Of a DNA stretch of 64,000 bases, positions 1-46,504 are shown in pieces. Source of the DNA: Brevibacterium paucivorans. GTDB taxonomy: Bacteria > Actinomycetota > Actinomycetes > Actinomycetales > Brevibacteriaceae. The position numbers and the translations under genes were made by a program. How positions within the stretch are numbered: position 1 is the first letter of the stretch; each line of letters starts with the position of its first letter. The notes under the pieces are model-generated. The model had not been told where the DNA came from. It saw nothing but the letters and a program-made list of their open reading frames with translations, and ran no database searches. The DNA is taken from NCBI RefSeq assembly GCF_016907735.1, contig NZ_JAFBCP010000001.1:1798001-1862000 (forward strand), in the 5' to 3' direction.

Positions 1-461
1 ATGCCCTGATCTTTTAGAAACGCGTGGAGTTGGTCTACATCGGCTCCTCGCGAACCAACCTTAAGTGTGCGAAACGCTGGCAGGTCTCCTTGGGCCACAA
101 TGATGGGGCGGGAAGACACCTCAGCGACTACCGTCCCTGCCTCAACACGGTCACCTGCCTTAAAAGGTACTGAGGTGACAATCGCCTCGTCTTCGCCCGA
201 GGTGACGAACCGTGGTGTGTTTGTGAATTCTTTCGTGGTTGAACAGTCCGCAGTCACCGTGCGACTTACGGTTCCCTTTTCCACGGGTACTGTGATGGTT
301 GAGGGCGACACATCGCTGGCTTGTGCGGCCTTTTGCACTTCGGTGCGTGCTTTACCGAGCCACAACCACGCAATGACGTTTGTGGCTACGAGCAGGACAA
401 TAACTGCGCAAACGATGACTTGCTTGCGTGACCACCTGGAGAACAGGCGAGGCTGAGCCAT
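1..461 (-). CDS. Membrane-fusion adaptor with peptidoglycan-binding domain, C-terminally cut by the window edge
   Basis: I translated this directly from the minus strand; the reading frame stays open from an ATG at 461-459 to the window start. About 15 basic N-terminal residues precede one hydrophobic segment (VIVCAVIVLLVATNVIAWLW, residues ~16-35). An extracytoplasmic region follows, with the beta-rich style of HlyD/RND-type adaptors (FKAGDRVEAGTVVAEVSSRP is lipoyl/barrel-like). The visible end, GSRGADVDQLHAFLKDQG, is the start of a peptidoglycan-binding-like domain. In actinobacteria such proteins accompany MacB-like ABC exporters, and I infer the ABC genes lie beyond the left edge. The start lies 5 nt after the stop of the upstream lipoprotein gene, so the two form an operon. 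The substrate cannot be inferred. Confidence 0.72.
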   Translation of the reverse strand, partial: MAQPRLFSRWSRKQVIVCAVIVLLVATNVIAWLWLGKARTEVQKAAQASDVSPSTITVPVEKGTVSRTVTADCSTTKEFTNTPRFVTSGEDEAIVTSVPFKAGDRVEAGTVVAEVSSRPIIVAQGDLPAFRTLKVGSRGADVDQLHAFLKDQG

Positions 462-2210: not shown

Positions 2211-3485
2211 CTAGTCCGTCCGCCCACCAGTCTGACGCGCCAACCTGACAACCACCTCGGCGTGGGACGTATGCGGAAACATATCCAAGAACCGCGCCTG
2301 CTCAATCCTGTACCCGGGCATTTTCGCAAGATCCGCCGCCAAAGTGTGCGGATTGCAACTCGAATAGATCACGTGCGGAATCCCGGACTGCTCGACCCAC
2401 CTGGCCATGTCCTCACCCATCCCGCGCCGAGGTGGATTCACAATCAACACGTCCGGCACCTGTGTCTGTTGGTGGGCCCACTGGGCGGCATCGGCACAGA
2501 TGAAGTTCAGCCCGAGGTCGCTCTCGCCTGCCGTGTCCAGCTCGGCTTTCTGCGCGGCTCCATGTGCGAGTTCCCGCGCCACCTCCCGCGCGGACTCGAC
2601 CGCAGCAGGGGCCACCTCGACACCCGTGACCTGCCGGCCTGGCCCGGCGACGTGCAGAGCGAAACCGCCAACCCCACAAAACAAGTCCCACGCCCTGAGG
2701 CGACGGCCGTGGGAAGTGGCGGGCACCTGGGCGTTGGAAACCCACTCACGCACCTGCTCATACAGACCAGACGCCACCACAGTATTCGTCTGCACAAACG
2801 ACTGCGGCCTAACCTTCAACTGCACCCGCCCCTGCGTCACCGGCAACCACTGCGGGCCATACAACGCGATCTCTTCGTCGCCCTCGATGATCGCCGTGTG
2901 AACAGGGTTGATGTTCGCGCTCACCGAAAACACCTCGACCCCCTCACACGCGTCCATAAAAGCGGGCAAGTGCTCCTGAATACGCGGCAGGGCAGACTGT
3001 GACGCCAACACAAACCGCACCATCACCCGGTTGTCATCACCAGCCGTGACAATCACGTGCTTGAGCTGACCCTTACGTTTGCGCACGTTATACGGCGGGA
3101 CCTGCGCGCGCTTGATGAGCCAGGGGAGTGTGCGAATCACGGTGTGAATCGATTCGGGGTACAAGGGGCAGTCGGTTAGGTCAATCCCAGCCCCGTCGTC
3201 GTCCAAGATGCCCAACGTGGGGTGCTCGGTGGTTCCCGCGACCACCATCTTGACCTTGATACGGAAACCGGACTCCGGGCCCACAACCGGGGGCAACCAG
3301 CTTTGTTCTTCCTCCTGAGCCGCCCTTGCTGCCCCAGTTGCCCAAAACGGTGCCAACAGGTCAGCGACCTCGGCCTGCTGCGACTCCACGCGCGTACTCA
3401 TGGGAACGGGGAGAAGCGTGCAGGAGCGGCACAGGCCGGCATCAAAATACGAACAATCCACGCCTCCCACTTTCTCATATCTCAC
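2211..3485 (-). CDS. rlmC: 23S rRNA (uracil-C5)-methyltransferase, RlmC/RumB type
   Basis: SAM-dependent RNA m5U methyltransferase of the TrmA/RlmCD family; RlmC modifies U747 of 23S rRNA in E. coli. The N-terminus carries the short Cys cluster CSYFDAGLCRSC typical of RlmC, expected to hold a 4Fe-4S cluster together with a later Cys. SAM-binding motif DLFCGVGGFALHVA lies mid-C-terminal. VNPPRRGMG and the catalytic SSCNPHTL (nucleophilic Cys) are near the end. There is no TRAM domain, which favours RlmC over RlmD. I chose GTG at 3485-3483, giving about 424 residues, because GGAG lies about 10 nt upstream. An in-frame start at 3539 is possible but would overlap the ilv promoter region. Divergent from ilvBNC. 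Confidence 0.85.
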   Translation of the reverse strand: MRYEKVGGVDCSYFDAGLCRSCTLLPVPMSTRVESQQAEVADLLAPFWATGAARAAQEEEQSWLPPVVGPESGFRIKVKMVVAGTTEHPTLGILDDDGAGIDLTDCPLYPESIHTVIRTLPWLIKRAQVPPYNVRKRKGQLKHVIVTAGDDNRVMVRFVLASQSALPRIQEHLPAFMDACEGVEVFSVSANINPVHTAIIEGDEEIALYGPQWLPVTQGRVQLKVRPQSFVQTNTVVASGLYEQVREWVSNAQVPATSHGRRLRAWDLFCGVGGFALHVAGPGRQVTGVEVAPAAVESAREVARELAHGAAQKAELDTAGESDLGLNFICADAAQWAHQQTQVPDVLIVNPPRRGMGEDMARWVEQSGIPHVIYSSCNPHTLAADLAKMPGYRIEQARFLDMFPHTSHAEVVVRLARQTGGRTD

Positions 3486-3688: not shown

Positions 3689-5515
3689 TTGGCCACAACG
3701 CAACCGGCACCGGCTTCGGCCACCAGGGCCCACCCGGTACCAAAACGAACCTCGCCAGAGAACCTTACGGGCGCACAAGCCGTCATTCGTAGCCTCGAGC
3801 TCCTTGGTGTCGACACGGTATTCGGCCTTCCCGGCGGCACGATCCTCCCCACCTACGACCCACTGCTGGACTCCAAAACCATCAACCACATCCTGGTGCG
3901 CCACGAGCAAGGTGCCGGCCACGCCGCGGAAGGCTACGCCTCGGCGACGGGACGCGTGGGCGTGTGCATGGCGACCTCGGGGCCGGGAGCAACCAACCTA
4001 GTCACCGCGCTTGCCGACGCACACATGGACTCCGTGCCAGTCCTGGCCATAACGGGCCAGCAGTCCTCCACCCTGCTGGGAACCGACGCGTTCCAAGAAG
4101 CCGACATCGTGGGCATGACCATGCCCATCACCAAACACAGCTTCCTGGTCACGCGCGCCGAAGACATCCCGCACGCAATTCAATCGGCATACCACATCGC
4201 TTCAACCGGACGCCCCGGACCGGTTCTGGTGGACATCACCAAGGATGCGCAGAACGCCGTTGCAGAATTCGTGTGGCCCGACGCCCCCAACCTGCCCGGC
4301 TACCGGCCCACCACCCGGCCACACGCCAAACAGATCAAAGAAGCGATCAAACTCATCGAACAGTCCACCCGGCCTGTGTTCTACGTGGGCGGGGGAGTGA
4401 TCCGAGCCCAAGCCAGCCCACAGCTGAAGGAACTGGCCGAAGCCACCCGGATCCCCGTTGCCACCACACTCATGGCACGCGGCGCCTTCCCCGACTCGCA
4501 CCCGCTGCACGTGGGCATGCCCGGCATGCACGGGACGGTGAGCGCGGTGACGGCGTTCCAGAAGTCGGACCTGCTCATCGCCGTGGGTGCTCGGTTCGAC
4601 GATCGCGTCACCGGCAACCTCGAAACCTTCGCTCCCAACGCCAAAGTCATCCACATTGACATTGACCCGGCTGAAATCGGGAAGAACCGCGCGGTGGACG
4701 TGCCCATCGTGGGAGACGCCGCCGAGGTGCTCGCCCAGTTGACGGCCGAACTCACCGCCTCGAAGTCCTCGGCCTTGGACAACGACCGAGGTGCGTGGTG
4801 GTCACAGCTGAACACGTGGAAGACCACCTACCCACTTGGATTTGAGCCCAACGATCAAGGACTGTGCGACCCGCAGTACGTGATCGAAAGGATTTCGGCC
4901 CTGACCGGGCCGGAAGGAACCTACGTCGCGGGTGTTGGACAGCACCAGATGTGGGCCAGCCAGTTCGTCACCTTCGACCGGCCAAACTCGTGGCTCAACT
5001 CAGGTGGGCTGGGAACCATGGGGTACTCCGTGCCTGCCGCTATGGGTGCGAAAGTGGGGCAACCCGAACGCACCGTGTGGGCAATCGACGGTGACGGGTG
5101 CTTCCAAATGACCAACCAGGAACTCGCCACCTGCGCACTCAACAACATCCCTATTAAGGTCGCGGTCATTAACAATTCGTCTCTGGGGATGGTGCGGCAG
5201 TGGCAGACCCTGTTCTACGACGGTAGGTACTCCCACTCCGACCTGAACACCGGGCACGAATCCGTGCGCGTCCCCGACTTCGTGAAACTCAGCGAAGCCT
5301 ACGGGTGCTTGGGGATGCGCGTTGACCGCAACGAAGACGTGGACGCAGCGATTGCGACCGCTCTTGAAACCAACGACCGTCCCGTGGTGATTGACTTCAC
5401 CGTTCCCGCCGACGCCATGGTGTGGCCCATGGTTCCTGCCGGCGTGAGCAACGACCAGATCCAGTACGCCCGCGACATGCAACCAGACTTCGACGACCCC
5501 ATGGAGGAGTTGTGA
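3689..5515 (+). CDS. ilvB: Acetolactate (acetohydroxyacid) synthase, catalytic subunit
   Basis: 608 residues, the usual length. ThDP- and FAD-dependent first common step of Val/Leu/Ile synthesis: condenses two pyruvates, or pyruvate with 2-oxobutyrate. The N-terminal ThDP pyrimidine domain contains GLPGG and the catalytic Glu in [14 protein letters not shown]. The middle FAD/regulatory domain contains [11 protein letters not shown]. The C-terminal ThDP pyrophosphate domain contains [12 protein letters not shown] with the Mg-binding Asn [12 protein letters not shown]. The start is TTG at 3689, chosen because AAGGAG lies about 5 nt upstream and no in-frame ATG precedes the conserved region. The stop overlaps the ilvN start (GTGA). 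Controlled by the leader peptide and attenuator upstream. Confidence 0.95.
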
Positions 5516-6027: not shown

Positions 6028-7125
<1,098 letters not shown>

Positions 7126-7190: not shown

Positions 7191-7234
7191 CGCTTCCGTT
7201 CTCACTTCCGCTTTGGCCCGGAAGAGGCAGGCGG

Positions 7235-7328
7235 GCCGAGGTGCCGGGCAGGCCGAGGTGCCGGGCGTGTGGGAGGTGCCCTGCCAGCCGAGGTGCCGGG
7301 CGTGTGGGAGGCGCTGCCACCTCGGCGG
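7235..7328. repeat. GC-rich short tandem repeat carrying four CCGAGGT heptamers
   Basis: Three near-identical units starting GCCGAGGTGCCGGGC (about 7235, 7252 and 7287). The last two are followed by GTGTGGGAGG and CTGCC-type tails. An inverted copy, CACCTCGGC, ends the array (7318-7326). The block lies between the ilvC terminator and the end of the minus-strand ThDP enzyme gene. No coding capacity is evident. It may come from local duplication of the genome-wide CCGAGGT motif. Confidence 0.7.
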
Positions 7329-7342
7329 CGGTTGACCTTGTG

Positions 7343-8896
7343 TTACATCACGACTTCGATGAGGTACGGGCCTTGAGCGTCAAGACCAGCGCGGAAGGCG
7401 GTTGCGAGGTCGTCCATGTTGTCCACGGCCTGACCGTCCACGCCCATCGACTTGGCCAGTGATACCCAGTCGATCGAGGGGTTGGTGAGGTCCATGAGGG
7501 CTTCTGCGCGCGGGCCACCAAAGTCAGCGCCCACATTGCGCATTTCGTCGCGCAGGATCTGGTACTTGCGGTTCGAGAAGATCACTACCACGATGTCCAG
7601 TCCCTCGCGCGCGTACGTCCATAGCGACTGTGGCATGTACATGCCGGACCCGTCGGACTCCAAGCAGATCACCTTGCGGTCTGGGCAGGCCACTGCCGCG
7701 CCGGCTGCCGTGGGGAGCGCGTAGCCAATAGACCCGCCGGTTCCCAGCATGTAGTCGTGCGGTTGGGCGGTGGCTGCGGTGGAGAAGAACGTGAAGCCGG
7801 TGGTGATGCTTTCGTCGACCACGATGCCGTTTTCCGGAATCATGTTGGCCAGCAGGTCGCCCAGTTTCTCTTTGGTGATAGAGCCGGTGGGTAGGTCCGG
7901 TAGGTCCAGCGCCGAGGTCGTCGCCTCTTTCGCCGTGTCTGCGCCTACCGCTGTGACCAGGGCCTGGAGTGAGGCCGTGAGGTCGTGGCGTGGCTGGGCC
8001 AACTCCACCACGTGCATGGCTGGGGGAGTGAGTGCGCTGGGCCGGTTGGGGTAGGCGAAGAACCCGACTGGGGCCTTCGACCCCACCAGGACCAGCAGGT
8101 CGTAGTCCTTGAGGAAGTCCACGGCAGCAGGGGTGGCGTACGGGACGCGCTTGACTGGCACACGGCCAGCACCCTGGGTGACGCGAGCGACCATGTTGGG
8201 GCACAGCAGATCAGCGCCGGTTGCTTCTGCGATCAGGCCCGCGCTGCGCAACGGGACTTCGCGTAGAGCGTTCTTGCCCAGGAGAATTGCTGGGTTTTTC
8301 GCTTTTTTCAGGGCAGCTGCTGCGCCTTCGATGATGTCGTCTGCAGGGATTCCGGCTGCGGGCACGAACGCCTTTCTTGGTTCCTGCTGGTTCTCCACCG
8401 GGTTCCATGCGGAGTCGGCAGGCAGGATGAGCGAGGCGATCTGGCCCGGGTTGGTCAGTGACGCGGCGATTGCGGCGGCCGTGTCGTGGGAGACGGAGTC
8501 GGCGTTCGCGGTGGTACGCACCCAGTGGCTGAACGGGCGTGCGGCACCTTCGACGTCCGAGGTGAGCGGGGCGTCGTACTGGCGGTGGTAGATCGCGTGG
8601 TCACCAATGACGTTGACGATTGGGGACTGCGCGCGGATCGCGTTGTGCAGGTTGGACAGTCCGTTTGCCAGGCCAGGACCCAGGTGCAGGAGCGTTGCGG
8701 CCGGTGTGTCTTTCATGCGCGCGTAACCGTCAGCGGCTCCCGTGACCACGCCTTCGAACAGGCCCAAGATGCAGTTGATTTCCGGGGTGTCATCGAGTGC
8801 TGCAACGAAGTGCATTTCCGAGGTTCCCGGGTTTGCAAACACCGTGTCGACACCGTTGGCGAGCAGGGTCTGCGTCAGGCTGTGCGCACCGTTCAT
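7343..8896 (-). CDS. ThDP-dependent decarboxylase / acetolactate-synthase-like enzyme
   Basis: 517 residues with the three-domain ThDP fold. The N-terminal pyrimidine domain holds the catalytic Glu in NPGTSEMHF. A central domain follows. The C-terminal pyrophosphate domain contains GSIGYALPTAAGAAVA and ESDGSGMYMPQSLWTYAREG with FSNRKYQILRDEM. It resembles the MdlC/benzoylformate-decarboxylase branch often labelled 'acetolactate synthase large subunit' in databases. It is shorter than IlvB and has no small-subunit partner, so I do not call it a second AHAS. The start has AAGGAGAACC upstream. It lies downstream of a TetR gene on the same strand. Substrate unknown. Confidence 0.8.
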   Translation of the reverse strand: MNGAHSLTQTLLANGVDTVFANPGTSEMHFVAALDDTPEINCILGLFEGVVTGAADGYARMKDTPAATLLHLGPGLANGLSNLHNAIRAQSPIVNVIGDHAIYHRQYDAPLTSDVEGAARPFSHWVRTTANADSVSHDTAAAIAASLTNPGQIASLILPADSAWNPVENQQEPRKAFVPAAGIPADDIIEGAAAALKKAKNPAILLGKNALREVPLRSAGLIAEATGADLLCPNMVARVTQGAGRVPVKRVPYATPAAVDFLKDYDLLVLVGSKAPVGFFAYPNRPSALTPPAMHVVELAQPRHDLTASLQALVTAVGADTAKEATTSALDLPDLPTGSITKEKLGDLLANMIPENGIVVDESITTGFTFFSTAATAQPHDYMLGTGGSIGYALPTAAGAAVACPDRKVICLESDGSGMYMPQSLWTYAREGLDIVVVIFSNRKYQILRDEMRNVGADFGGPRAEALMDLTNPSIDWVSLAKSMGVDGQAVDNMDDLATAFRAGLDAQGPYLIEVVM

Positions 8897-8944: not shown

Positions 8945-9622
8945 TCAGAGGGTACGGCTTGTTTGGGTTCCAAGTAAATTCCGTAGCCACGAATCGAGCA
9001 GATCGCTTCCAAGGTCAGTAAGTTCCGGGCCAAGCTGGCCGAACTGAACCGCGTTAATCAGACCAATGAGAGATGTCCAGGCAAGCACCGCACCCGTGGC
9101 GCGCTCAGGCGACATTTCCGCGCCCAGGTCTGTGGCACCTCGGGCGAGTTCTTCTGTAAGTGCGGGTGAGGCAGGTGCCGTCCCGAGGTCGAAGTGGGCG
9201 ACCGTGTGGACGAACAGGGTGAGGACTCGGGTGCCGGGATCGGTAGTGGACTCGGCGGGGGCGGCGTAGTTGGGGACTGGCGTGCCGTACATGAGGGCCC
9301 ACTGGTGCGGGTGGCGTTGCGCCCATTCGAGTAGCGCGTGGGTGAGTGCGTGAAGGCGCGCGTGGGGTGTTGTGGCGGTGTGTGTCGCTTTCTCGACGTG
9401 GTCTGCTACGCGGTTGAAAGATTCGACGAGGAGGACGGTGAGGAGTTCGTCGCGGTTTTTCACGTGTCGATACAACGCTGAAGGGGCGACGCCCATGGAC
9501 CGTGCGACTTCGCGAAGTGACAGTCCTGCGTGCCCATGCTTTTCGAGAAGTCGCGTGCCGTGCGTGATGATGCCGTTGCGCATCTGGGTGCGTGACTCCG
9601 CGTGGGGCTTTCGAGTGGTCAT
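8945..9622 (-). CDS. TetR-family transcriptional regulator (WHG-type C-terminus)
   Basis: 225 residues from ATG at 9622. The N-terminal TetR helix-turn-helix is clear: GTRLLEKHGHAGLSLREVAR, then SMGVAPSALYRHVKNRDELL (residues ~18-60). The C-terminal ligand/dimer domain contains HPHQWALMYGTPVPNY and ends with LGSDLLDSWLRNLLG, typical of TetR_C_33/WHG-type regulators. The start at 9622 has a CACACT -10-like box 6 nt upstream and no ribosome site; an ATG two codons earlier is possible. Two palindromic sites lie in the 112-bp gap to the divergent epimerase gene, so it probably represses itself and that gene. Confidence 0.87.
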   Translation of the reverse strand: MTTRKPHAESRTQMRNGIITHGTRLLEKHGHAGLSLREVARSMGVAPSALYRHVKNRDELLTVLLVESFNRVADHVEKATHTATTPHARLHALTHALLEWAQRHPHQWALMYGTPVPNYAAPAESTTDPGTRVLTLFVHTVAHFDLGTAPASPALTEELARGATDLGAEMSPERATGAVLAWTSLIGLINAVQFGQLGPELTDLGSDLLDSWLRNLLGTQTSRTL

Positions 9623-13519: not shown

Positions 13520-13540
13520 TTTGCCGGTAGGAAACCTCGC

Positions 13541-13577
13541 CCGAGGTGGGAGGGCCACCCAGCCTGGACCACCTCGG
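13541..13577. repeat. Inverted pair of the CCGAGGT motif
   Basis: CCGAGGTGG (13541-13549) and its exact complement CCACCTCGG (13569-13577) lie 19 bp apart in the convergent intergenic gap. They could form a second hairpin after the ABC permease gene. Confidence 0.7.
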
Positions 13578-13592
13578 CGGTTAACCTACGCC

Positions 13593-16079
13593 CTACCGCA
13601 TTGCCACGCCTTGGGCCGGTTGGGTGCGGGAGGCGGCGATTGCCGGTAGCGCCGAGGCCGCCAGGGCCGCCACGAGCGCCACCACGGCGAGTACCCCAAA
13701 CATGAGCCACGGAATCCCCAGCGGAACCGCGATGCCGTCGGCCGTCAGGAGAGACCGCACGCCGGTCCAGCCGAACAGGATCCCCAGCCCCAGACCAACG
13801 ACCAGTGACGTGAGGGCCATGAGGACCGCCTCGGCCGCAACCATGAACGCCGCCGACCACCGCGACATCCCCATGGACCGCAACAGAGCCGTTTCCCGCT
13901 TGCGCTCCATAGTCGCCAGGGAAAGCGTGTTACCCACGCCCACGATCGAAATGATGACCGAGGTGGCTAACAGTCCCAGCACAATGCCCGTCATGATGTT
14001 GAGGATTTGAGAGAACTGCGCGCGCAGGCTGGCGCCGTCGACGTACGCGATCACGCCGGAGTTTTCCAGCTGAGCCTGGAGCTTGGAAATGTCCTGCGCG
14101 GATGCGGAGTTGGTGACACGCACCCACGTCTGACCGCTCGACTCTTCGAGGCCCAGGTCGGTGACGTCGGCCTTGTTGGCAACAACCGTGTTTGGGGGCA
14201 CGCCTTCGACGGTCTTGAGTGTGAGGCTGACCTTCTTGTCGCCAACCGTGAGGTCGACCTTCTTGCCGTCGTGCTTCTTGGTGTCCGGAGTGTCACGCAC
14301 GTTCACGGTGCCGGGTTCGGGCAGGAAGCGCGTGTCACGTGGCACGTCCTTGGTGGCTTGGTCATGCGTGTCGACGCCCACAACCTGGGTCAGGGAGTCG
14401 TCGTTTTCATCCAGTTGGTGCCCCAGCGGCACGGACGCTTTGGCCTGCACGCCAGGGAGGGTGACGAAGTTGTCCACGGCGTCCGACTTCTTGATGGTGT
14501 CGGCGGTCTTGCCCGAGGTCGATGTCGCCACCACGTCGATAGGGTCGTCCTGGTTGAGTTCGTTGTTGGCGGTGGTGCGGGCGGTCTGCGCCCCCACCAG
14601 GATGGTCGCCACCAAGGTGACGCCCACCAAAAGCGCCGAGGTCGTTGAGGCTGTGCGTCGCGGCGACAGTTTGACGTTGCGTGCGACGAGGCCCAAGGCT
14701 GGGGAGCGGAAGATCGCTTCTCCGGCGCGACCGATCAGGGCAACCATGGGCGGTACGAACACGCGGCTGAGCACCAGAACACCGCTGAAGGCGAGGATGC
14801 CGCCGGGCAGTGCCAGGAGGAGTTCTCCCATGGCGGCGCCTAGAAGGAGCACGGCGACTCCAACCACGGTGAGGAGAGTCCCTACTACCAGACGGATCCA
14901 CGGGAACCGGGAGGCCGGGGCTGGGATGTCAGCGGGTGCCAGCGCGTCGATAGGGGACACGCGCGTGGCTTTGAGCGCGGGCCAGAACGAGGCGATGACA
15001 GTCACGGTGACACCCACGGCCAGTCCGAGAACGGCGGCGAGGAGGGTGAGCGGCGCCAACGCGAAGGTGGGTTGGAAGAAGGCACGTGCGGCCAGTGTGA
15101 GCAGGACCGCGAAGCCCCAGCCCACGAAGACACCGAGGATCGCGCTGATGAGACCCAGGACTGCGCCTTCAGCGAGGGTCGCGTTGCGGAGCTGGGAGCG
15201 GGTGGCGCCAACTGCGCGCAGGAGTGCCAGGGTGCGGGTGCGAGAGGCGACCAGCACCTGGAATGTGTTTGAGATGACCAGCCCGGCGACGAACAGGGCG
15301 ACGATAATGAAGGCGGCGATGAAAGCGACTAGGGTCGTTGCTTCGCCGGTCATTTCCTTCATGCGTTGCTGCACGATTTGGTCAGTGGTGGAAACGTGGA
15401 GGCCGCCGGCTGATTTGGCACCGGTGTCCTCGGTCTTGACGTCCTTGGCGCCGGCCAGTGCTTTCGCGACGGCGTCTTGGACCTGGGCGACGTTAGACGG
15501 GTTGTCGACGAAAACGCGCATGTGGTCGGTGGCGGGGTACAGGTTCGAAACGTCTGTGGCGAAGAACATGGGGACGCTGGATGGAACCTGTGCCAGACCG
15601 GTGATTGTGAAGGTGTGGGTGTCTTCGCCTTCGCCGTCTTCAGAGGGCACGACGAGTTCGACCTTGTCGCCCACCTTCTTGTTCTGTTTTTCCGCCATCT
15701 TCGCGTCGTACAGAAGTTCGCCCTTCTTGGAAGGGGCCTGGCCTTCTGTGATTGAGATGCCGCTGTGCTTTGGCCACACTGAGACGAACGCGAATTCGTC
15801 CGAGGTGGTGAACACGGAGCCTTGGTCGATGATCTGAGTGTCTTTCACGCCGTCTACCGATGCGACGGTCTTCTGGGTTTTGTCCGTCAGATCGTTTTCG
15901 TCAGGGGAGACCAGGAGGTCGGCGCCGGAGTACTGCACACTGAACTGGTCGCGCATCGTGTTGTTAAACGCAGTGAGCAGGCTGACCACTGCAACGACGA
16001 ATGCCACCGACACCATGACGGTGATTCCGGCAGCTACCAGACGCGAACCACCGGAACGAAGATTCGCTTTGACGATCAT
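13593..16079 (-). CDS. ABC transporter permease, MacB/FtsX type
   Basis: 828 residues. An N-terminal membrane segment (~17-38) is followed by a large extracytoplasmic domain (~40-235), then three TM helices of an FtsX core (~245-370), a further TM pair (~400-450), a second extracytoplasmic domain (~500-680) and three C-terminal TMs (~690-820). This is the duplicated 8-10 TM layout of actinobacterial FtsX-like permeases. Its ATG overlaps the stop of the ATPase gene by 4 nt. With the upstream histidine kinase/response regulator it resembles peptide-antibiotic sensing and export modules, but the substrate is not evident. Confidence 0.9.
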   Translation of the reverse strand: MIVKANLRSGGSRLVAAGITVMVSVAFVVAVVSLLTAFNNTMRDQFSVQYSGADLLVSPDENDLTDKTQKTVASVDGVKDTQIIDQGSVFTTSDEFAFVSVWPKHSGISITEGQAPSKKGELLYDAKMAEKQNKKVGDKVELVVPSEDGEGEDTHTFTITGLAQVPSSVPMFFATDVSNLYPATDHMRVFVDNPSNVAQVQDAVAKALAGAKDVKTEDTGAKSAGGLHVSTTDQIVQQRMKEMTGEATTLVAFIAAFIIVALFVAGLVISNTFQVLVASRTRTLALLRAVGATRSQLRNATLAEGAVLGLISAILGVFVGWGFAVLLTLAARAFFQPTFALAPLTLLAAVLGLAVGVTVTVIASFWPALKATRVSPIDALAPADIPAPASRFPWIRLVVGTLLTVVGVAVLLLGAAMGELLLALPGGILAFSGVLVLSRVFVPPMVALIGRAGEAIFRSPALGLVARNVKLSPRRTASTTSALLVGVTLVATILVGAQTARTTANNELNQDDPIDVVATSTSGKTADTIKKSDAVDNFVTLPGVQAKASVPLGHQLDENDDSLTQVVGVDTHDQATKDVPRDTRFLPEPGTVNVRDTPDTKKHDGKKVDLTVGDKKVSLTLKTVEGVPPNTVVANKADVTDLGLEESSGQTWVRVTNSASAQDISKLQAQLENSGVIAYVDGASLRAQFSQILNIMTGIVLGLLATSVIISIVGVGNTLSLATMERKRETALLRSMGMSRWSAAFMVAAEAVLMALTSLVVGLGLGILFGWTGVRSLLTADGIAVPLGIPWLMFGVLAVVALVAALAASALPAIAASRTQPAQGVAMR

Positions 16080-16822
16080 TTGGTGACCTCCAGAAGGGCC
16101 TGGGAAACCTCTTCAACGGTGGGGTCGAAGACCTCGCCGGCGATGTTTCCGTCAGCCAGTAGGACCACACGGTCGGCGTACGCGGCCGCGGCAGGGTCGT
16201 GCGTCACCATGACAACTGTCTGACCCATTTCGGAGACGCATGCGCGCAGAGTCTCTAACACCTCGGTCCCGGAACGCTTGTCCAGCGCGCCGGTGGGTTC
16301 GTCAGCGAAAATGACGTCAGGCTGGTTCACCAGGGCGCGGGCAACGGCCACGCGCTGTTGCTGGCCACCGGAGAGTTCGTGTGGGCGGTGGGTGAGGCGT
16401 TCGCTCAGGCCAAGATTTTCCACGATCGCGTTCTTGAAGTCCAGGTCGATGCTTTTGCGGGCGAGTTTGGACGGGAGCATGATGTTTTCGTCAGCAGTCA
16501 TGGCCGGTACCAGGTTGAACGCCTGGAAGATGAAGCCCATGTGGGCGCGCCTGATGCGGGTGAGCTTGGTGTCGCTGATGCCTGTGATGGCGCGGCCGGC
16601 GAGCGTGACGGTGCCGGAGTCGGGGGTGTCGAGGCCGGCCAGGATGTGCATGAGCGTTGACTTACCCGAGCCGGACGGGCCCATGATCGCGGTGAACTGG
16701 CCGGATTGGATGTCGATGTCGAAGTGGTTGAGGACGGTGAGTTCCGCCTCACCGGTGCCGTAGGTTTTGCTGAGGCCGCGAGCCGAAATCGCGGGGAATG
16801 CTGATGACGTAGATGTGTTCAT
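16076..16822 (-). CDS. ABC transporter ATP-binding protein (LolD/MacB type)
   Basis: 248 residues from ATG at 16822. Walker A GPSGSGKST, Q-loop FIFQAFNLVPAM, signature ELSGGQQQRVAVARAL, Walker B VIFADEPTGALD and switch His MVTHD are all intact. It energises the FtsX-type permease encoded downstream with a 4-nt overlap. I prefer ATG at 16822 (MNTSTSS) over an upstream in-frame start at 16975, because that extension would run through the intergenic hairpin region and has no homology to the family. Confidence 0.92.
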   Translation of the reverse strand: MNTSTSSAFPAISARGLSKTYGTGEAELTVLNHFDIDIQSGQFTAIMGPSGSGKSTLMHILAGLDTPDSGTVTLAGRAITGISDTKLTRIRRAHMGFIFQAFNLVPAMTADENIMLPSKLARKSIDLDFKNAIVENLGLSERLTHRPHELSGGQQQRVAVARALVNQPDVIFADEPTGALDKRSGTEVLETLRACVSEMGQTVVMVTHDPAAAAYADRVVLLADGNIAGEVFDPTVEEVSQALLEVTK

Positions 16823-17015: not shown

Positions 17016-17681
17016 TCACACGACGCCGGCCTCGTAGGCGAAGATGACAGCGTGGATACGGTCGCGCACCTCGAGCTTGGTCAGAATATGACCTACATGC
17101 GTCTTCACGGTGGGGGCTGCCATGAACAGTTCGCTGGCAATCTCGGCGTTGGACCTGCCTCGCGCCACCAGCTCAAACACCTCACGCTCACGGGCCGTGA
17201 GCCGATCCAACTTCTGCGCGTGATCACTCGGCACCGCTGGTGTAGCGACCACCGTCTCCAGCAACCGGCGCGTGGTCGTTGGCGCGATCACCGCACCACC
17301 CACGTGCGCCTGCCGGATCGAGTCCAACAACACCTCGGGCCGGGCGTCCTTCAACAAAAACCCACTCGCCCCCGACCGCAGCGCCGTCAACGCATAATCA
17401 TCAGTATCAAACGTCGTCAACACAATAATGGTGGGCACCTGCGGCAAGGCCCCAGCATCACCCAACGCCACAATCTCCTGGGTAGCGGTCAGTCCATCCA
17501 TGACCGGCATGCGAATATCCATGAGAACCACATCGACCGCATGTGCCCGCACCGCCTCAACCGCTTCACGACCGTTTTCAGCCTGCGCCACTACCCGCAT
17601 GTCATCCTGCGAATCAATCACCATCGCAAGACCCGCACGCACCAACACCTGGTCGTCAACCAACAACACCCGAACCGTCAT
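17016..17681 (-). CDS. Response regulator, NarL/LuxR type
   Basis: 221 residues. The N-terminal receiver domain has acidic residues in VDDQ and phospho-acceptor Asp in VLMDIRMPVMDG (~54), the conserved Thr in LTTFD and Lys in FLLKD. The C-terminal LuxR helix-turn-helix is LTAREREVFELVARGRSNAE, then APTVKTHVGHILTKL. It is encoded directly after the histidine kinase gene (4-nt overlap) and upstream of the MacB-like ABC operon on the same strand, which is its likely target. Confidence 0.93.
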   Translation of the reverse strand: MTVRVLLVDDQVLVRAGLAMVIDSQDDMRVVAQAENGREAVEAVRAHAVDVVLMDIRMPVMDGLTATQEIVALGDAGALPQVPTIIVLTTFDTDDYALTALRSGASGFLLKDARPEVLLDSIRQAHVGGAVIAPTTTRRLLETVVATPAVPSDHAQKLDRLTAREREVFELVARGRSNAEIASELFMAAPTVKTHVGHILTKLEVRDRIHAVIFAYEAGVV

Positions 17682-18895
17682 GCCACATCCTCCGGAAGAG
17701 TGAACTGAACAAGAAAACCAGTCTCAGTGGGCTCAGCAACCAGCGAACCCCCATGAATATGTGCGCGCTCCTTCATACCCTGGATGCCCGCCCCAGACCC
17801 AGGCGCCACAGCAGATTCGGCCCGCCCGGTAGAAACAACCCGCGCCACGATTCCCAACTCACCCGGCTCCACAGTGACTTCTGCACGCGCATCCGGCCCA
17901 CCGTGCTTCATCGTGTTGGTGAGCGCCTCCTGCACAATCCGGTACACCGCCAACTGAGCCGCCGGCGCAAGCTCAGGCACATCAGGCGCAGTACTCAGCC
18001 TCACCTCAAGGCCCGTCGCCCGCACGTTTTCCACAAGGCTTCCGAGGTCGTGAATACCTGGCATCGGAGTAGTCTGGGCGCTGGCGCTGGGATCACGCAA
18101 AACACCCAACATCCCACGCAAGTTACCCAGCGCTTCACGACCAGTTTCTGCAATTGTTTCCAACGCGGTCACCGCGGCCCGTGGCGAAGCCTTCGCCGCA
18201 TAGCGCCCACCATCAGCCTGCGTAATGATCACCGACATCGAGTGGGCAACAATGTCGTGCATCTCTCGTGCAATCCGCATCCGTTCAGCATCGGATGCAA
18301 GTCGAATTTCATTCTCACGTTCGCGCTCCAGTAGCGCGTTACGTTCGGCAATCCTTTGCGCATCATCACGCTTACGCCAATGAATATCCCCAAGCGTCCA
18401 CGCGAGCGCCACCGTCACCATCGGAAAAACCAACGCCGCCAAAACTAGGAACAGCAGTTCACCAGCGGTGACATCCGAAAGCCTCGCACCAGACACATAG
18501 AAATACATGAAATTACTGGCCGCAAAAATAAACGCCGCCACAATTCCAATGCCCAAGAAGATCTTTCCCCACCGCCGAGGTGCATAAGCGGTGACCGCGT
18601 GCACAGTAATAGGGACGGTGACAAGGGCTGGGTGCGGGAATGCAAACGTCAACGCGTAGAGAAACCCAGTGGCCACGACAATCCATCCAGTGACCAGGGG
18701 CAGCGATCGCCTAATTACAAGCGATGCGCTCATCGCAACCAAAAACACGATCTGGAGAACCCCACGCAGACCGGGCTCATACGCCTGAAGCAGAATCGTA
18801 ATGAGCACCAGTGGCGCCGCGAAGAAAAGCGAGTCCACCACCCACATGTGGGCCGACATAAACTGTGATGCCCTCACATGCCACGGTTTTCTCAT
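17678..18895 (-). CDS. Sensor histidine kinase, NarL-type (HisKA_3)
   Basis: 405 residues. About five to six N-terminal membrane helices (residues ~15-170) have very short loops, an intramembrane-sensing style. A coiled-coil linker follows (RIAERNALLERERENEIRLA), then the phospho-acceptor His in MRIAREMHDIVAHSM and a C-terminal HATPase_c domain (QEALTNTMKHGG, GSGAGIQGMKERAHIHGG). I chose ATG at 18895 because TAAACT lies exactly 7 nt upstream; an in-frame ATG at 18931 has no ribosome site. It overlaps its response regulator gene by 4 nt. Confidence 0.88.
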   Translation of the reverse strand: MRKPWHVRASQFMSAHMWVVDSLFFAAPLVLITILLQAYEPGLRGVLQIVFLVAMSASLVIRRSLPLVTGWIVVATGFLYALTFAFPHPALVTVPITVHAVTAYAPRRWGKIFLGIGIVAAFIFAASNFMYFYVSGARLSDVTAGELLFLVLAALVFPMVTVALAWTLGDIHWRKRDDAQRIAERNALLERERENEIRLASDAERMRIAREMHDIVAHSMSVIITQADGGRYAAKASPRAAVTALETIAETGREALGNLRGMLGVLRDPSASAQTTPMPGIHDLGSLVENVRATGLEVRLSTAPDVPELAPAAQLAVYRIVQEALTNTMKHGGPDARAEVTVEPGELGIVARVVSTGRAESAVAPGSGAGIQGMKERAHIHGGSLVAEPTETGFLVQFTLPEDVA

Positions 18896-19059: not shown

Positions 19060-20643
19060 GTGAAACCCGTTGTCCTAATTGCAGAAGAACTCTCACCCGC
19101 AACCGTTGACGCGCTAGGGCCAGATTTTGAAATCAGGACATGCAATGGGGCAGACCGTGCCGAACTGCTGCCCGCCCTCAAAGACGTCAACGCTGTGCTC
19201 ATCCGCTCCGCAACTAAAATGGACGCCGAAGCACTCGCGGCAGCGCCTGAACTCAAAGTCATCGCACGCGCCGGTGTTGGCCTCGACAACGTAGAGATCT
19301 CCGCCGCCACTCGCGCCGGAGTCATGGTCGTCAATGCGCCCACCTCCAACATCATCTCGGCAGCCGAACTCACCATGGCTCACATCCTGGGTTCAGCACG
19401 TAACTACGGTGCAGGTCACGCGTCCCTCAAAGCAGGGGAGTGGAACCGTTCCAAACTTTCCGGCGTTGAGCTCTACGAAAAGACCCTGGGCATCGTGGGC
19501 TTGGGACGCATTGGTGGTCTGGTCGCTGAACGCGCAAAGGCCTTTGGCATGAACCTCATCGGTTACGACCCCTACATCTCCTCCTCCCGCGCAGCCGCAA
19601 TGGGCGTGACCGTCGTGAGCCTCGACGAACTCCTCGAACAGTCCGACTTCATCACCGTTCACATGCCCAAAACCCCTGAAACAATCGGCATGATCGGCGA
19701 AGAAGCATTCACCAAGGTCAAACCCACCGCGCGCATCATCAACGTTGCCCGCGGTGGCATCGTCGACGAAGCCGCACTCGCCAAAGCTATCGAAGACGGT
19801 CGCGTAGGCGGCGCTGGCATCGACGTGTTCACTCAAGAACCACCCGTGGACTCACCACTCATGGCCCACGACCGCATCAACGTCACCCCACACCTCGGCG
19901 CCTCCACCGCCGAAGCCCAAGAAAAAGCCGGCATCGCCGTCGCCCAATCAGTGCGCAAAGCCCTGGCCGGTGAGCTAGTGCCAGATGCTGTCAACGTTGC
20001 CGGTGGCGCAATCGACCCGCAAGTCCGCCCTGGCATCGCACTGACCGAACGCCTGGGACGGGTCGTGTCAGCCATGGCAGGCGACCCGGTCACTCACTTG
20101 CGCGTTGAGGTACGCGGCGAAGTGACACAAAAGGACGTCAGCGTCCTCAAACTGTCCGCTCTCAAGGGACTGTTCCTCGATGTGGTCGACGGCGCAGTGT
20201 CCTACGTCAACGCCCCACTTTTTGCTCAAGAACGTGGCGTCACCGTCGAACTCGCCACCGAACCCCTAAGCGAGAACTTCCGCAACGTCGTCACGCTCGT
20301 CGCTGCCACCTCGGCAGGGCAACAAATCCGCGTCGCCGGAACCGTCACCGGCCCCAAGGACGTGCAGAAACTCACCGAAATCGACGGCTACGACCTCGAA
20401 ATGAAACTCAGCGACCACCTCGTCGTCTTCAAATACGACGACCGCCCCGGCGTCATTGGCCTGTTCGGTCAGGCGCTAGGCAACCTGGGCATCAACATTG
20501 AAGCCATGCAGGTCTCGCCCAAAAATGATCAGGCGTTGGCCGTGCTCGCAGTTGATTCGGAAGTGACGGCCGAGGTCGTTGACACCGTCGCTGCTGACTT
20601 TGGCGCAAGCTTCGCTCGGGTTGCGAACATCGAAGAGAAGTAA
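19060..20643 (+). CDS. serA: D-3-phosphoglycerate dehydrogenase, long form
   Basis: 527 residues, the actinobacterial long type. First step of serine synthesis: oxidises 3-phosphoglycerate with NAD+. Substrate-binding and Rossmann domains (GLGRIGGLVAERAKAFGM at about 146-163; catalytic Arg in NVARGGIVDEAAL; His in VTPHLGAST) are followed by the ASB intervening domain (~320-450) and a C-terminal ACT domain (VVFKYDDRPGVIGLFGQALG) that senses serine. GTG start with AGGAGG 6-7 nt upstream. It converges on the CitE-like gene with a 1-bp gap. Confidence 0.95.
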   Translation: MKPVVLIAEELSPATVDALGPDFEIRTCNGADRAELLPALKDVNAVLIRSATKMDAEALAAAPELKVIARAGVGLDNVEISAATRAGVMVVNAPTSNIISAAELTMAHILGSARNYGAGHASLKAGEWNRSKLSGVELYEKTLGIVGLGRIGGLVAERAKAFGMNLIGYDPYISSSRAAAMGVTVVSLDELLEQSDFITVHMPKTPETIGMIGEEAFTKVKPTARIINVARGGIVDEAALAKAIEDGRVGGAGIDVFTQEPPVDSPLMAHDRINVTPHLGASTAEAQEKAGIAVAQSVRKALAGELVPDAVNVAGGAIDPQVRPGIALTERLGRVVSAMAGDPVTHLRVEVRGEVTQKDVSVLKLSALKGLFLDVVDGAVSYVNAPLFAQERGVTVELATEPLSENFRNVVTLVAATSAGQQIRVAGTVTGPKDVQKLTEIDGYDLEMKLSDHLVVFKYDDRPGVIGLFGQALGNLGINIEAMQVSPKNDQALAVLAVDSEVTAEVVDTVAADFGASFARVANIEEK

Positions 20644-25367: not shown

Positions 25368-25419
25368 AGCCGGCACCGACCTCGGCGGGCGGGGCTCCCG
25401 CTACCTGGTGCCAAGGCGG

Positions 25420-25432: not shown

Positions 25433-26512
25433 ATGAACACGTTTCACACGGAAAGAAAAGTTCCTGGCGGAAAACTCGTGGTGGTCGACGGTGAACTCAC
25501 CGACGGTGTCATCACCCACGCGCAAGTGTCAGGCGACTTTTTCTTAGAGCCTGAAGAAGCGTACTTTGCGCTGGCCCCCGCCCTGGTGGGTGTGAGCACC
25601 GCGGACAGCCGTGAAGAGATCACTAACCGGTTGGATAAGGCTGTCACCCAGGCCGCCACCGAGGTGGGCGCCCAGGTGGACTTGCAAGGTTTCAGTACCG
25701 CTGATGTTGCGTTCGCGGTGCGACGCGGGCTGACAGGTGCCACCGATTTTTGGGACCACGAGTGGGAGATTTTCCACGACGAGTCACGCCCCACGGTTGA
25801 AAATGTGGCACTGGACCAGGTGCTCCTCGAAGAGGTCGCGGCTGGTCGCAGGAAACCCACCGTGCGGTTTTGGGAGTGGGACGACACCGCGGTGGTGATC
25901 GGCTCATTCCAGTCGTACTCCAACGAAGTCGAACCTGAAGGCGTTGCGCGTTATGACGTGCAGGTGGTGCGCCGGGTGTCCGGTGGGGGAGCGATGTTCA
26001 TGGAAGGTGGCAACTGCGTGACCTTCTCAATCTACGCCCCAGACAGCTTGGTAGCCGGATTAAGTTACGAAGAGTCCTACGCATTCATGGACCAGTTCAT
26101 TCTGGATGCGCTCACCCAACTGGGTGTCAGAGCAACCTATGAACCCATCAACGACATCGTTTCCCAGCACGGCAAAATCGGGGGAGCCGCCCAGAAACGG
26201 GTGTCCGCCGGCGCTGTCCTCCACCACGACACGTTGAGCTACGACATCGACGCCAACAAAATGGTCGAAGTTCTGCGCATCGGAAAAGCGAAAATCTCTG
26301 ACAAGGGCGTCGCTTCAGCCAAGAAGCGCGTGGACCCGTTGCGTAGCCAAACGGGTGTAAGCCGTGAACAGGTCATTCACACCATGATCGACACGTTCAC
26401 TCGCAGAACCGGGGCTAGCAATGGCTCTGTCACAGCTCAGGAATTGGAGCGAGCACGCGAACTCATCGACACGAAATTCGGCACTGAAGAGTGGACGAAA
26501 CGAGTTCCCTGA
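25433..26512 (+). CDS. Lipoate-protein ligase A family protein with N-terminal accessory domain
   Basis: 359 residues. The C-terminal ~250 residues are the LplA/BPL catalytic fold: FWEWDDTAVVIGSFQSYSNE, RRVSGGGAMFMEGGN (the conserved RRxSGGG lipoyl-AMP motif), INDIVSQHGKIGGAAQKR (substrate Lys). The N-terminal ~90 residues (KVPGGKLVVVDGELTDGVI, then VSGDFFLEPEE) match the accessory domain that in E. coli LplA lies after the catalytic domain. The domain order is therefore swapped. The reaction is attachment of lipoate (or octanoate) to E2/GcvH lipoyl domains. The start is set by the leaderless -10 box. Confidence 0.85.
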   Translation: MNTFHTERKVPGGKLVVVDGELTDGVITHAQVSGDFFLEPEEAYFALAPALVGVSTADSREEITNRLDKAVTQAATEVGAQVDLQGFSTADVAFAVRRGLTGATDFWDHEWEIFHDESRPTVENVALDQVLLEEVAAGRRKPTVRFWEWDDTAVVIGSFQSYSNEVEPEGVARYDVQVVRRVSGGGAMFMEGGNCVTFSIYAPDSLVAGLSYEESYAFMDQFILDALTQLGVRATYEPINDIVSQHGKIGGAAQKRVSAGAVLHHDTLSYDIDANKMVEVLRIGKAKISDKGVASAKKRVDPLRSQTGVSREQVIHTMIDTFTRRTGASNGSVTAQELERARELIDTKFGTEEWTKRVP

Positions 26513-28047: not shown

Positions 28048-29820
28048 CTAACCCCGCACACGCCTGAGGTTGCCATCCACACGGGTGGTCCAACCTCGGG
28101 CGTCTGTGTGTTCCAACAGCGGAATGGCAACCCTGCGGGTCGTGTCCAACGCTTGCCGTGCCTGACTCAACGTAAACGGTTGCACCAACCCAGCCAGCAC
28201 CCGCATGGCGCGTGCCGGCGTAGACGGAAGCACCACCACGCCGTCGCTGAGACGCAACAGCCGGCCTGCCTGCTCGGCAGCGGCAAGCTCACGCGCACCC
28301 AAGCCCAGATCCTCCAGATCCTGGGCTTCCGGCGCGTCAAACGGGTGCTCAGACAAGCGCCGCTCCAACTCCGCGACACCAGCTTCTGCAGCCCCTAAAG
28401 AACCTGAGCCGGGCAGACGCGCAAACCCGGAAACCACCTCGGCGGGGGGCTCAACCAGCCCCTCAACCAACTCACGCGGGCACCCCACACTCTTCGCCAA
28501 CTGCGCAAGCGGCACGCCCCGTGACAGCGGGTCACGGGTGTCGTCCTCAAGCACGCGCGCAACCTGGGCCACCCAGGTGCGCACAACGTCCTCCCGCACG
28601 AGCCACGCGCCCATGCGCTGAACGCCCGCCGGCAGCTGATCTGCCTCACCAGGCACTTCGTAGCCGAACGTGGTCAACGTGGACTCCCGCACGCACCCGC
28701 GGCGGGTCAGTTCAGCCGTGAAATCGGCAGGGGAGTAGTGCTCCAGGGCGTGGGCGCGCTCAGCGGCAGAACCACGCCGAAAAAGCTCGGGTGGGTCCAC
28801 ATCCAGCACGGTCAAACCACCCAGCACTGCACGCTCGCCGCTTCCACGCACCACCAGACGGTCACCCACCTGGACTGGAATCGAGCGGGACAGTTTCAGG
28901 CGCGCGTAGCGTTGGGACAAGGGCCGCACGTGCGCTTGCAGGCTGGCCGCGCCAATATGGACGGTGACGTCCGTGGGAATCGTGTCCACAGCCGTCCCAG
29001 TGACGTCCACAACGTCCGCCACATGCCAGGCATCCGGCGTGATGAGGGCGTCACCTCGGGAAATGTCCTGTGCAGAAACCCCGCGCAGGTTCAGCGCCAC
29101 CCGGGATACCGGCGCGATGCTGCTGACTGCGGAGTTGTGATTCTGCAACCCCCGGACCGTGACGCGGGTGCGGGACTGCGCCGAGGTGAGCTCCAGGTTC
29201 TGCTCGGTAGCCACCGTGCCTTCGCCCAGGGTTCCCGTGACGATCGTGCCCGCGCCGGTGATAGAGAACGCGCGGTCGACCCAGATGCGCACCCGCCCGT
29301 CTGTATCTAGTGGGGGAGCGGCGCTGGTGACCGAGTCCAAGGCGTCGAGGAGTTCCGGCAGCCCGTCCCCGGTGACCGCCGAGGTGGTAACCAGGGGCGC
29401 ATCGGTGAGGCAGCTGAGTTCGGTGCGGGCTTGGGAACTCGCGTGAGCGATCTGCTCAGGCGTTGCCGAGTCGCACTTGGTGAGCACAATGACACCTCGG
29501 GTGATTCCCAAGGCCTCGAGCGCGTCACGGTGATCAGTCGACTGGGCCGACCAGCCTTCATCAGCCGCCACGACGAAACACACAATAGGAGCCGGACCGA
29601 GCCCGGCCAGCATGTTGCCAATGAAGCGTTCGTGGCCGGGCACATCAACAAACGACACGTGCGTGCCACTGGGCAGCGTGCAGTGCGCGAAGCCTAAGTC
29701 AATCGTGAGCCCGCGCCGCTTTTCCTCATCTAACCGGTCTGGATCTGAACCTGTCAGGGCGCGGACTAGCGCGGACTTGCCGTGATCCACATGCCCGGCC
29801 GTGGCAATAACAAACGACAT
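28048..29820 (-). CDS. selB: Selenocysteine-specific elongation factor
   Basis: 590 residues. GTPase that delivers Sec-tRNA(Sec) to UGA codons by binding a SECIS hairpin in the mRNA. G1 GHVDHGKSALV, G2 region RRGLTIDLGFA, G3 DVPGHERFIGNM and G4 TKCDS are intact. EF-Tu-like domains 2-3 follow (~180-340). The C-terminal ~240 residues hold the winged-helix repeats that read SECIS (ALEHYSPADFTAEL near 365; QLAKSVGCPRELVEGL; the last WH near 530-590). ATG at 29820 starts 1 nt after the selA stop, so the order is selC-selA-selB on one transcript. The client is fdhA, 7 kb upstream. Confidence 0.95.
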   Translation of the reverse strand: MSFVIATAGHVDHGKSALVRALTGSDPDRLDEEKRRGLTIDLGFAHCTLPSGTHVSFVDVPGHERFIGNMLAGLGPAPIVCFVVAADEGWSAQSTDHRDALEALGITRGVIVLTKCDSATPEQIAHASSQARTELSCLTDAPLVTTSAVTGDGLPELLDALDSVTSAAPPLDTDGRVRIWVDRAFSITGAGTIVTGTLGEGTVATEQNLELTSAQSRTRVTVRGLQNHNSAVSSIAPVSRVALNLRGVSAQDISRGDALITPDAWHVADVVDVTGTAVDTIPTDVTVHIGAASLQAHVRPLSQRYARLKLSRSIPVQVGDRLVVRGSGERAVLGGLTVLDVDPPELFRRGSAAERAHALEHYSPADFTAELTRRGCVRESTLTTFGYEVPGEADQLPAGVQRMGAWLVREDVVRTWVAQVARVLEDDTRDPLSRGVPLAQLAKSVGCPRELVEGLVEPPAEVVSGFARLPGSGSLGAAEAGVAELERRLSEHPFDAPEAQDLEDLGLGARELAAAEQAGRLLRLSDGVVVLPSTPARAMRVLAGLVQPFTLSQARQALDTTRRVAIPLLEHTDARGWTTRVDGNLRRVRG

Positions 29821-29821
29821 A

Positions 29822-45694: not shown

Positions 45695-46504
45695 ATGCGA
45701 ATCGTTCGTTTTGTTCACAACGACGCGCCACACTACGGCGTAGTTGAAGGAAACCTCCCTGAAGTTAGCGACGACGGAACTTTTGACACCTCGGAACTGG
45801 AGGTGGCGGTCCTAAGTTCTGACCCATTCTTTAGCCCTGCGCAATCGACCGGCGAACGCCTGCCTTATGACGAAGTGCGGATGCTGGCCCCGATCCTGCC
45901 CCGCTCAAAAGTCATTGGGGTTGGCCGGAACTTTGCCGATCATGCGCGCGAACTCGGAAACGAGGTCCCGGTGAGCCCGCTGACGTTCTTCAAGCCCAAC
46001 ACCTCGGTGGTGGGGCCCGGTGAGCCTATCCGGTTGCCTGCCATCAGTGAAGAAGTGTCCTACGAAGCTGAACTGGCCGTGGTCATTTCTAAGATCGCCA
46101 AGAACGTTACGCCAGAAAACGCGTACTCCTATGTTTTGGGGTACACGGCAGCAAACGACGTGACACTCCGTGACATCCAGCGGATCGACAAACAGTGGTC
46201 GCGGGCCAAAGGCTTCGACTCCAGCTGTCCTCTGGGGCCGTGGATCGAAACTGAATACGACCCAGAAAATGTGCGCATTCGTTCGTGGGTCGACGGCGAA
46301 CTCAAACAAGACGGAAACACTGAAGACTTCATCTTCGACATTCCCACCGTCATTGCTCACCTCACCGAAGTCATGACCCTGCTTCCCGGTGACGTCATCT
46401 TGACGGGAACACCCGCGGGAGTAGGTCGCATTGAGGCTGGTAACCGCGTCGACATTGCCATTGACGGGCTGGGAGTTCTGTCCAACCCCGTCATGGACGT
46501 CTAA
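45695..46504 (+). CDS. Fumarylacetoacetate-hydrolase-family protein
   Basis: 269 residues. FAH fold; metal-binding and catalytic regions GVGRNFADHARELG, LTFFKPNTSVVGPGEP (Lys), YEAELAVVISK (EXE-type metal acid), AANDVTLRD and ILTGTPAGVGRI. Family members hydrolyse C-C bonds of acylpyruvates or act as oxaloacetate decarboxylases; the exact substrate cannot be read. MRIVRFVHND at 45695 is the start (leaderless); upstream in-frame starts would extend into glsA. It precedes gltX by 63 bp. Confidence 0.87.
   Translation: MRIVRFVHNDAPHYGVVEGNLPEVSDDGTFDTSELEVAVLSSDPFFSPAQSTGERLPYDEVRMLAPILPRSKVIGVGRNFADHARELGNEVPVSPLTFFKPNTSVVGPGEPIRLPAISEEVSYEAELAVVISKIAKNVTPENAYSYVLGYTAANDVTLRDIQRIDKQWSRAKGFDSSCPLGPWIETEYDPENVRIRSWVDGELKQDGNTEDFIFDIPTVIAHLTEVMTLLPGDVILTGTPAGVGRIEAGNRVDIAIDGLGVLSNPVMDV

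Follow-up and report, generated by a model that had tools for sequence, protein, structure and literature searches.

A DNA word, CCGAGGTSKY, maintained across a Brevibacterium genome and its candidate roles

The ilvC locus and the copies in the window

The genome under study (G000) is that of a Brevibacterium of 2.41 Mb (2,410,104 bases in one contig), and the window is the whole 64-kb stretch of DNA that was analysed. The genus assignment follows from the IlvC protein, which is 84-86% identical to its Brevibacterium counterparts and reaches no more than 77% with other genera. In the window, ilvC ends at 7125 and faces a convergent acetolactate synthase gene; the gap between them holds the terminator-like hairpin of ilvC itself, with a T-rich tail (7151-7183), followed by four copies of the heptamer CCGAGGT at 7236, 7253, 7288 and 7319. 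These four copies, to which the first-pass annotation had drawn attention, are real but not mutually independent, since the stretch is partly a local duplication (a 35-nt direct repeat, with spacings of 17 and 35). The copies at 7288 and 7319 are inverted relative to each other, and the pair folds somewhat more stably than its shuffled versions. Such inverted pairs need not be terminators because ilvC already has its own. The features are as follows (coordinates in the window, strand, description).

7221..7307, plus, 35-nt direct repeat region (three copies, 74-100%), a local multiplier of the word
7283..7335, plus, inverted word pair in the convergent ilvC/acetolactate synthase gap (-31.3 kcal/mol, z -2.1)
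13530..13590, plus, inverted word pair between convergent genes (-29.2 kcal/mol, z -2.5)
197..203, plus, CCGAGGT copy
2254..2260, minus, CCGAGGT copy
2427..2433, plus, CCGAGGT copy
2512..2518, plus, CCGAGGT copy
3367..3373, minus, CCGAGGT copy
3974..3980, minus, CCGAGGT copy
4722..4728, plus, CCGAGGT copy
4786..4792, plus, CCGAGGT copy
6528..6534, plus, CCGAGGT copy within ilvC
7236..7242, plus, CCGAGGT copy, intergenic cluster 3' of ilvC
7253..7259, plus, CCGAGGT copy in the 35-nt direct repeat
7288..7294, plus, CCGAGGT copy in the 35-nt direct repeat, hairpin arm 1
7319..7325, minus, CCGAGGT copy, hairpin arm 2
7912..7918, plus, CCGAGGT copy
8557..8563, plus, CCGAGGT copy
8818..8824, plus, CCGAGGT copy
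9137..9143, minus, CCGAGGT copy
9183..9189, plus, CCGAGGT copy
13541..13547, plus, CCGAGGT copy, hairpin arm 1, between convergent genes
13571..13577, minus, CCGAGGT copy, hairpin arm 2, between convergent genes
13958..13964, plus, CCGAGGT copy
14513..14519, plus, CCGAGGT copy
14636..14642, plus, CCGAGGT copy
15800..15806, plus, CCGAGGT copy
16260..16266, minus, CCGAGGT copy
17332..17338, minus, CCGAGGT copy
18042..18048, plus, CCGAGGT copy
18575..18581, plus, CCGAGGT copy
19892..19898, minus, CCGAGGT copy
20308..20314, minus, CCGAGGT copy
20570..20576, plus, CCGAGGT copy
25379..25385, minus, CCGAGGT copy
25659..25665, plus, CCGAGGT copy
28093..28099, minus, CCGAGGT copy in selB
28436..28442, minus, CCGAGGT copy in selB
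29053..29059, minus, CCGAGGT copy in selB
29181..29187, plus, CCGAGGT copy in selB
29379..29385, plus, CCGAGGT copy in selB
29494..29500, minus, CCGAGGT copy in selB
30087..30093, minus, CCGAGGT copy
30361..30367, plus, CCGAGGT copy
30806..30812, minus, CCGAGGT copy
31012..31018, plus, CCGAGGT copy
33510..33516, minus, CCGAGGT copy
34037..34043, plus, CCGAGGT copy
35127..35133, minus, CCGAGGT copy
37784..37790, plus, CCGAGGT copy
38018..38024, plus, CCGAGGT copy
38509..38515, plus, CCGAGGT copy
39173..39179, plus, CCGAGGT copy
40653..40659, plus, CCGAGGT copy
41164..41170, minus, CCGAGGT copy
41645..41651, minus, CCGAGGT copy
44114..44120, minus, CCGAGGT copy
44291..44297, plus, CCGAGGT copy
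44355..44361, plus, CCGAGGT copy
45092..45098, minus, CCGAGGT copy
45788..45794, minus, CCGAGGT copy
46001..46007, minus, CCGAGGT copy
46839..46845, plus, CCGAGGT copy
47607..47613, plus, CCGAGGT copy
48078..48084, minus, CCGAGGT copy
48491..48497, plus, CCGAGGT copy
49924..49930, plus, CCGAGGT copy
51172..51178, minus, CCGAGGT copy
52658..52664, plus, CCGAGGT copy
52920..52926, plus, CCGAGGT copy
54287..54293, minus, CCGAGGT copy
54396..54402, minus, CCGAGGT copy
56340..56346, plus, CCGAGGT copy
56626..56632, plus, CCGAGGT copy
57132..57138, minus, CCGAGGT copy
58181..58187, minus, CCGAGGT copy
59003..59009, plus, CCGAGGT copy
59838..59844, minus, CCGAGGT copy
60892..60898, plus, CCGAGGT copy
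61372..61378, plus, CCGAGGT copy
63986..63992, minus, CCGAGGT copy

The window thus carries 78 copies on both strands compared to 10.8 expected from dinucleotide shuffles (sd 3.5), a count matched by 0 of 100 shuffles, and CCGAGGT/ACCTCGG ranks first among all of its 7-mers. The first-pass annotation had estimated about 75 copies by eye against 8-12 expected, and all 13 of the positions that it listed are genuine copies. The window also encodes selenocysteine machinery of Brevibacterium: tRNA-Sec, selB and a neighbouring gene lie close to the gene for a formate dehydrogenase alpha subunit (28048-31285 and 36660-39359).

Abundance, exact form and upkeep of the word

Over the whole genome CCGAGGT occurs 1197 times in the forward and 1181 times in the reverse orientation (2,378 copies, about one per kb), the strands being equal; the same heptamer read backwards, used as a control, occurs 140 and 159 times. 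Sample-based analyses covered 1.144 Mb of the genome, and in a genome-spread sample of 864 kb CCGAGGT was again first among the 7-mers with 846 copies compared to 150.7 under an order-2 Markov model (5.6x), far from the near-Markov count that would have undone the original claim. A literature search for the bare heptamer matched primer sequences only.

The G/C flank that had been proposed is confirmed: CCGAGGTG, with G after the core, is enriched 10.1x and CCGAGGTC, with C, 6.3x, compared to about 1.1x for A or T at that position (CCGAGGTA/T). The best extension is CCGAGGT[GC][GT] (13.6x) and weak base preferences run on to about +18. Single changes in the core are nearly all found at 0.5-1.7x, the tolerated ones being confined to the two edge positions (last T to C, 3.3x; first C to T, 2.2x). 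The word is therefore 5'-CCGAGGT-S-K-Y (S = G/C, K = G/T, Y = C/T), with its first seven bases near-strict.

That selection acts on the DNA word and not on the protein had been suggested from codon choice, and Glu codons in this genome are indeed GAA (0.61) more often than GAG (0.39). When codons were permuted within genes, holding both the protein and the codon usage fixed, CCGAGGT exceeded these synonymous shuffles 3.7x in coding DNA and CCGAGGTG 6.5x; enrichment was found in most codon phases, reaching 10x and 14x in two phases that use rare codons, with one of the six near 1 (1.2x). Intergenic DNA holds 133 copies compared to 24.6 expected (5.4x), in agreement with the occurrence in and between genes seen in the window. 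Because the word is enriched in most codon phases and also in intergenic DNA, neither codon usage nor codon-pair bias, the latter named at the outset as an explanation that would undo the claim, accounts for it. Copies do not follow the gene strand either (464 sense and 494 antisense).

Comparison with a sister species (G004; 177 kb aligned at 88% nucleotide identity) showed that 160 of 196 copies (82%) are identical, compared to 87.5 (45%) expected from other 7-mers in the same codon phase (binomial p about 2e-26). Every codon phase shows this excess, as do intergenic copies (18/22), and it covers positions 0 to +9 before it ends, giving a sharp footprint of about 10 bp; single-mismatch words show mainly ordinary conservation. 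What is maintained is thus the DNA sequence of each single copy, independently of protein, gene strand and replication strand, by natural selection or by a self-copying bias.

A 29 kb island (2157-2186 kb, contig C1, GC 0.61) that is absent from the sister species holds 12 copies compared to about 30 expected (p=2e-4); a low-GC segment of 11.7 kb (2278.5-2290 kb) holds 2. In phage AGM1, a single phage whose host, B. aurantiacum, is a different species, CCGAGGT is found 13 times (12.0 expected) and CCGAGGTG 4 times (3.8 expected), so the enrichment is not a mutational habit of DNA replicated in these cells. The island also contains a second N6/N4 methylase gene, at 2184265.

With a replication origin placed near 1.2 Mb by GC skew only, 1,152 copies divide into 574 leading-strand and 578 lagging-strand ones (49.8% leading, 95% CI 46.9-52.8), a balance unchanged for assumed origins from 1.1 to 1.3 Mb. 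The strand bias relative to origin and terminus that the first-pass annotation had contemplated is thus absent; this excludes a polarised segregation motif and also removes the usual hallmark of Chi. Copies are evenly spread (spacing CV 1.1; variance/mean of 10 kb window counts 1.34), and close intergenic pairs show a modest excess of the inverted (+-) arrangement (11/22, p=0.01). Around the word, its own strand is rich in G and poor in A at synonymous and intergenic positions (at fourfold sites A stands at 0.73-0.80x and G at 1.17x), on both sides within about 100-300 bp and for longer on the 3' side. This asymmetry is found in the source genome and the sister species, is weaker around near-miss words and was not seen in word-rich high-GC relatives.

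Distribution in the genus and words of other families

In most Brevibacterium the whole-genome count of CCGAGGTG is about 10-19 times that of its reverse; several species have a ratio of 5-7, and about nine fall to 1.3-3.2. In a two-gene tree with missing data, which is a rough guide only, most of the word-poor species group together. Pooled shuffle tests gave 6.5x for the source genome, 2.4x for a word-rich high-GC pool (5.6x intergenic) and 1.2x for the word-poor species. Excess conservation ranks the species in the same way: it was 0.82 compared to 0.45 expected for the source genome and 0.56-0.66 compared to 0.36-0.38 in three of the high-GC pairs, and no excess was found in the one word-poor pair tested. 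These counts and pooled tests correct a shuffle test on 40 kb per species, in which the word had seemed restricted to two species; they show instead that most of the genus carries the signal, in graded strength. An enrichment across the order Actinomycetales, read from raw counts, was also rejected, as synonymous shuffles trace it mostly to the codon usage of high-GC genomes. In G009 and G045 a one-base variant, ACGAGGTG, is enriched 3.1x beside CCGAGGTG at 2.3x, a hint of a dialect of the word.

Different words appear to be present in other families of actinobacteria. Shuffle tests of named Microbacteriaceae loci (L017, L026, L031, L033, L053, L058 and L067) found CGGATGCC enriched in coding phases (up to 44 compared to 3.7) and in intergenic DNA (19 compared to 4.5). 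A count in 149 genomes of the order finds CGGATGCC strongly enriched in one family only (f19, taken to be Microbacteriaceae from the named loci), in all of its genomes but one, G115, where it is near background; examples are 1497 and 1444 copies compared to 67 and 71 of the reversed word, about 21x the control in G070. CGGATGCC is an independent word of one actinobacterial family, at a density similar to that of CCGAGGT. Weaker candidates from shuffle tests of named loci are GNCGTAC in Nocardioidaceae and allies (L013-L015, L024, L046, L059, L069, L077, L080 and others) and CCCCTTC in Dermatophilaceae (L066, L068, L074-L076 and L084; intergenic 13 compared to 2.1), both of which still need independent confirmation because they were picked by scanning all 7-mers. 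There is about an even chance that Actinomycetota use lineage-specific self-recognition words (CCGAGGTSKY, CGGATGCC, possibly GNCGTAC and CCCCTTC) for the uptake or recombination of kin DNA, which, if true, would represent the first Gram-positive uptake-signal system or the first AdnAB Chi sites.

Candidate roles of the word

Abundant short words fall into three known classes, Chi sites, uptake signals and HIP (PMC4390886), none of which was reported for Actinobacteria in the literature searched. As no protein is tied to CCGAGGTSKY, its function remains inferred. ComEC, RecC, Eco57I-type and N6/N4 methylases, AdnAB-type nucleases and T2SSE ATPases were compared among species and none separates the word-rich from the word-poor; since no tested gene tracks the word, the choice between uptake and Chi is a matter of judgement. 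A defined 10-bp word, together with congeners with and without it, makes both questions directly testable.

We tentatively prefer, at somewhat short of even chances, a role as a DNA-uptake-type signal, a genome-wide recognition word in a clade of Brevibacterium. Some DNA-binding component of the competence machinery would favour word-bearing DNA, this preference would make transforming DNA come mainly from kin, and each recombination event would restore or spread the word. CCGAGGTSKY would then work like the uptake sequences (DUS and USS) of Neisseriaceae and Pasteurellaceae, the families named for such sequences in the literature examined. It resembles them as a short exact word with thousands of copies in both orientations, in and between genes, with inverted pairs at gene ends, as reported for DUS (PMC3630211), and in differing by lineage. 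The uptake reading draws support from the missing strand polarity, from how densely the copies lie, from their inverted pairs and from the differences among species of the genus; the exactness of the word, its conservation in the sister species, its indifference to gene strand, its scarcity in the 29 kb island and its background level in phage AGM1 also speak for it. On the gene side, ComEC was found in 51 of the 51 species searched, a comEC-adjacent gene reads by eye as ComEA-like with helix-hairpin-helix motifs, and secretion/pilus ATPase (T2SSE) and T2SSF genes are encoded. On the other hand, species at background level have ComEC and pilus-type ATPases just as the others do, so that no uptake gene tracks the word; the excess of inverted pairs is modest, and a literature search found no report of transformation in Brevibacterium. 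The host, unlike those of DUS and USS, is a Gram-positive actinobacterium. In H. influenzae and N. gonorrhoeae the enrichment of single-mismatch uptake-sequence forms is graded (PMC1939737), but such forms are hardly enriched here, most single changes remaining at background. The uptake reading also does not predict the local G-rich, A-poor strand. If it is correct, sequence-selective transformation is not confined to Gram-negatives.

A Chi-type hotspot is the main rival and a less probable reading: an AdnAB helicase-nuclease would read CCGAGGT(G/C) in the translocated strand, stop degrading and load RecA, so that the copies would protect and recombine self DNA. Three observations favour it, namely the AdnAB-type genes (310385-316899 in the genome, both subunits with a UvrD helicase and a PD-(D/E)XK nuclease, with PDDEXK_1 pairs of the AdnAB kind in the sampled Brevibacterium), the locally G-rich strand and the different words of other families; additionally, RecC is absent from 51 of 51 species. 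The G-rich, A-poor strand around the copies recalls E. coli Chi, whose surroundings are GT-rich. CCGAGGT shares with the Chi sites of RecBCD and AddAB its nature as a GC-rich, over-represented 7-8-mer depleted in acquired DNA. However, it has no replication-strand polarity and is about four times as dense as E. coli Chi, and the group of G002 and G030 keeps AdnAB-type genes yet the word is not enriched there. Polarity is treated as a defining property of Chi (PMC8022716). According to PMC4824097 it is not known whether AdnAB responds to a Chi sequence; a Chi role for the word would give AdnAB its first candidate.

It is improbable that the word serves to bind a protein of the nucleoid or of chromosome organisation, one that needs a near-uniform, non-polar lattice of sites. 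The even spread in both orientations and in coding and intergenic DNA would suit such a protein, but there is no positive evidence for one, and the strength of the signal is strongly uneven among species of a single genus. KOPS and other segregation motifs are likewise short over-represented chromosomal words; KOPS are, however, strongly polarised from origin to terminus, and signals of that type are excluded by the 50:50 distribution of CCGAGGT.

A methylation-coupled word, acted on by an orphan DNA methyltransferase like cyanobacterial HIP1, is slightly less probable still. An N6/N4 methylase gene (1361648-1363039) is common to the source genome and its sister species, and HIP1 is a precedent for an abundant word found together with orphan methylases (PMC4390886). 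HIP1 is also a very abundant lineage-specific word of unsettled function that has been lost in some species, but it is palindromic and has known orphan methylases, whereas CCGAGGT is asymmetric and no methylase tracks it. The same N6/N4 methylase family occurs in G002 and G030, where the word is not enriched, and the source genome encodes no Eco57I-type methylase. Of the first interpretation of the motif, selection for a DNA word has stood and the polarised segregation signal is refuted; the methylation motif found no positive support, and the uptake and Chi-like readings are both retained.

Lastly, the reading of the word as a functionless by-product of base composition, of codon usage or codon-pair bias, or of mutational context, which gains some colour from other high-GC actinobacteria, whose high raw counts are mostly explained by codon usage, is refuted with near certainty by the excess over synonymous shuffles (above all in the two rare-codon phases), the intergenic excess, the mostly background level of single-base neighbours, conservation about twice that of comparable 7-mers and the background count in a related host's phage.

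As a separate observation, GTGCAC is strongly avoided genome-wide (214 copies compared to 707 expected in the 864 kb sample; 0.3-0.6x over synonymous shuffles), as would be a restriction site.
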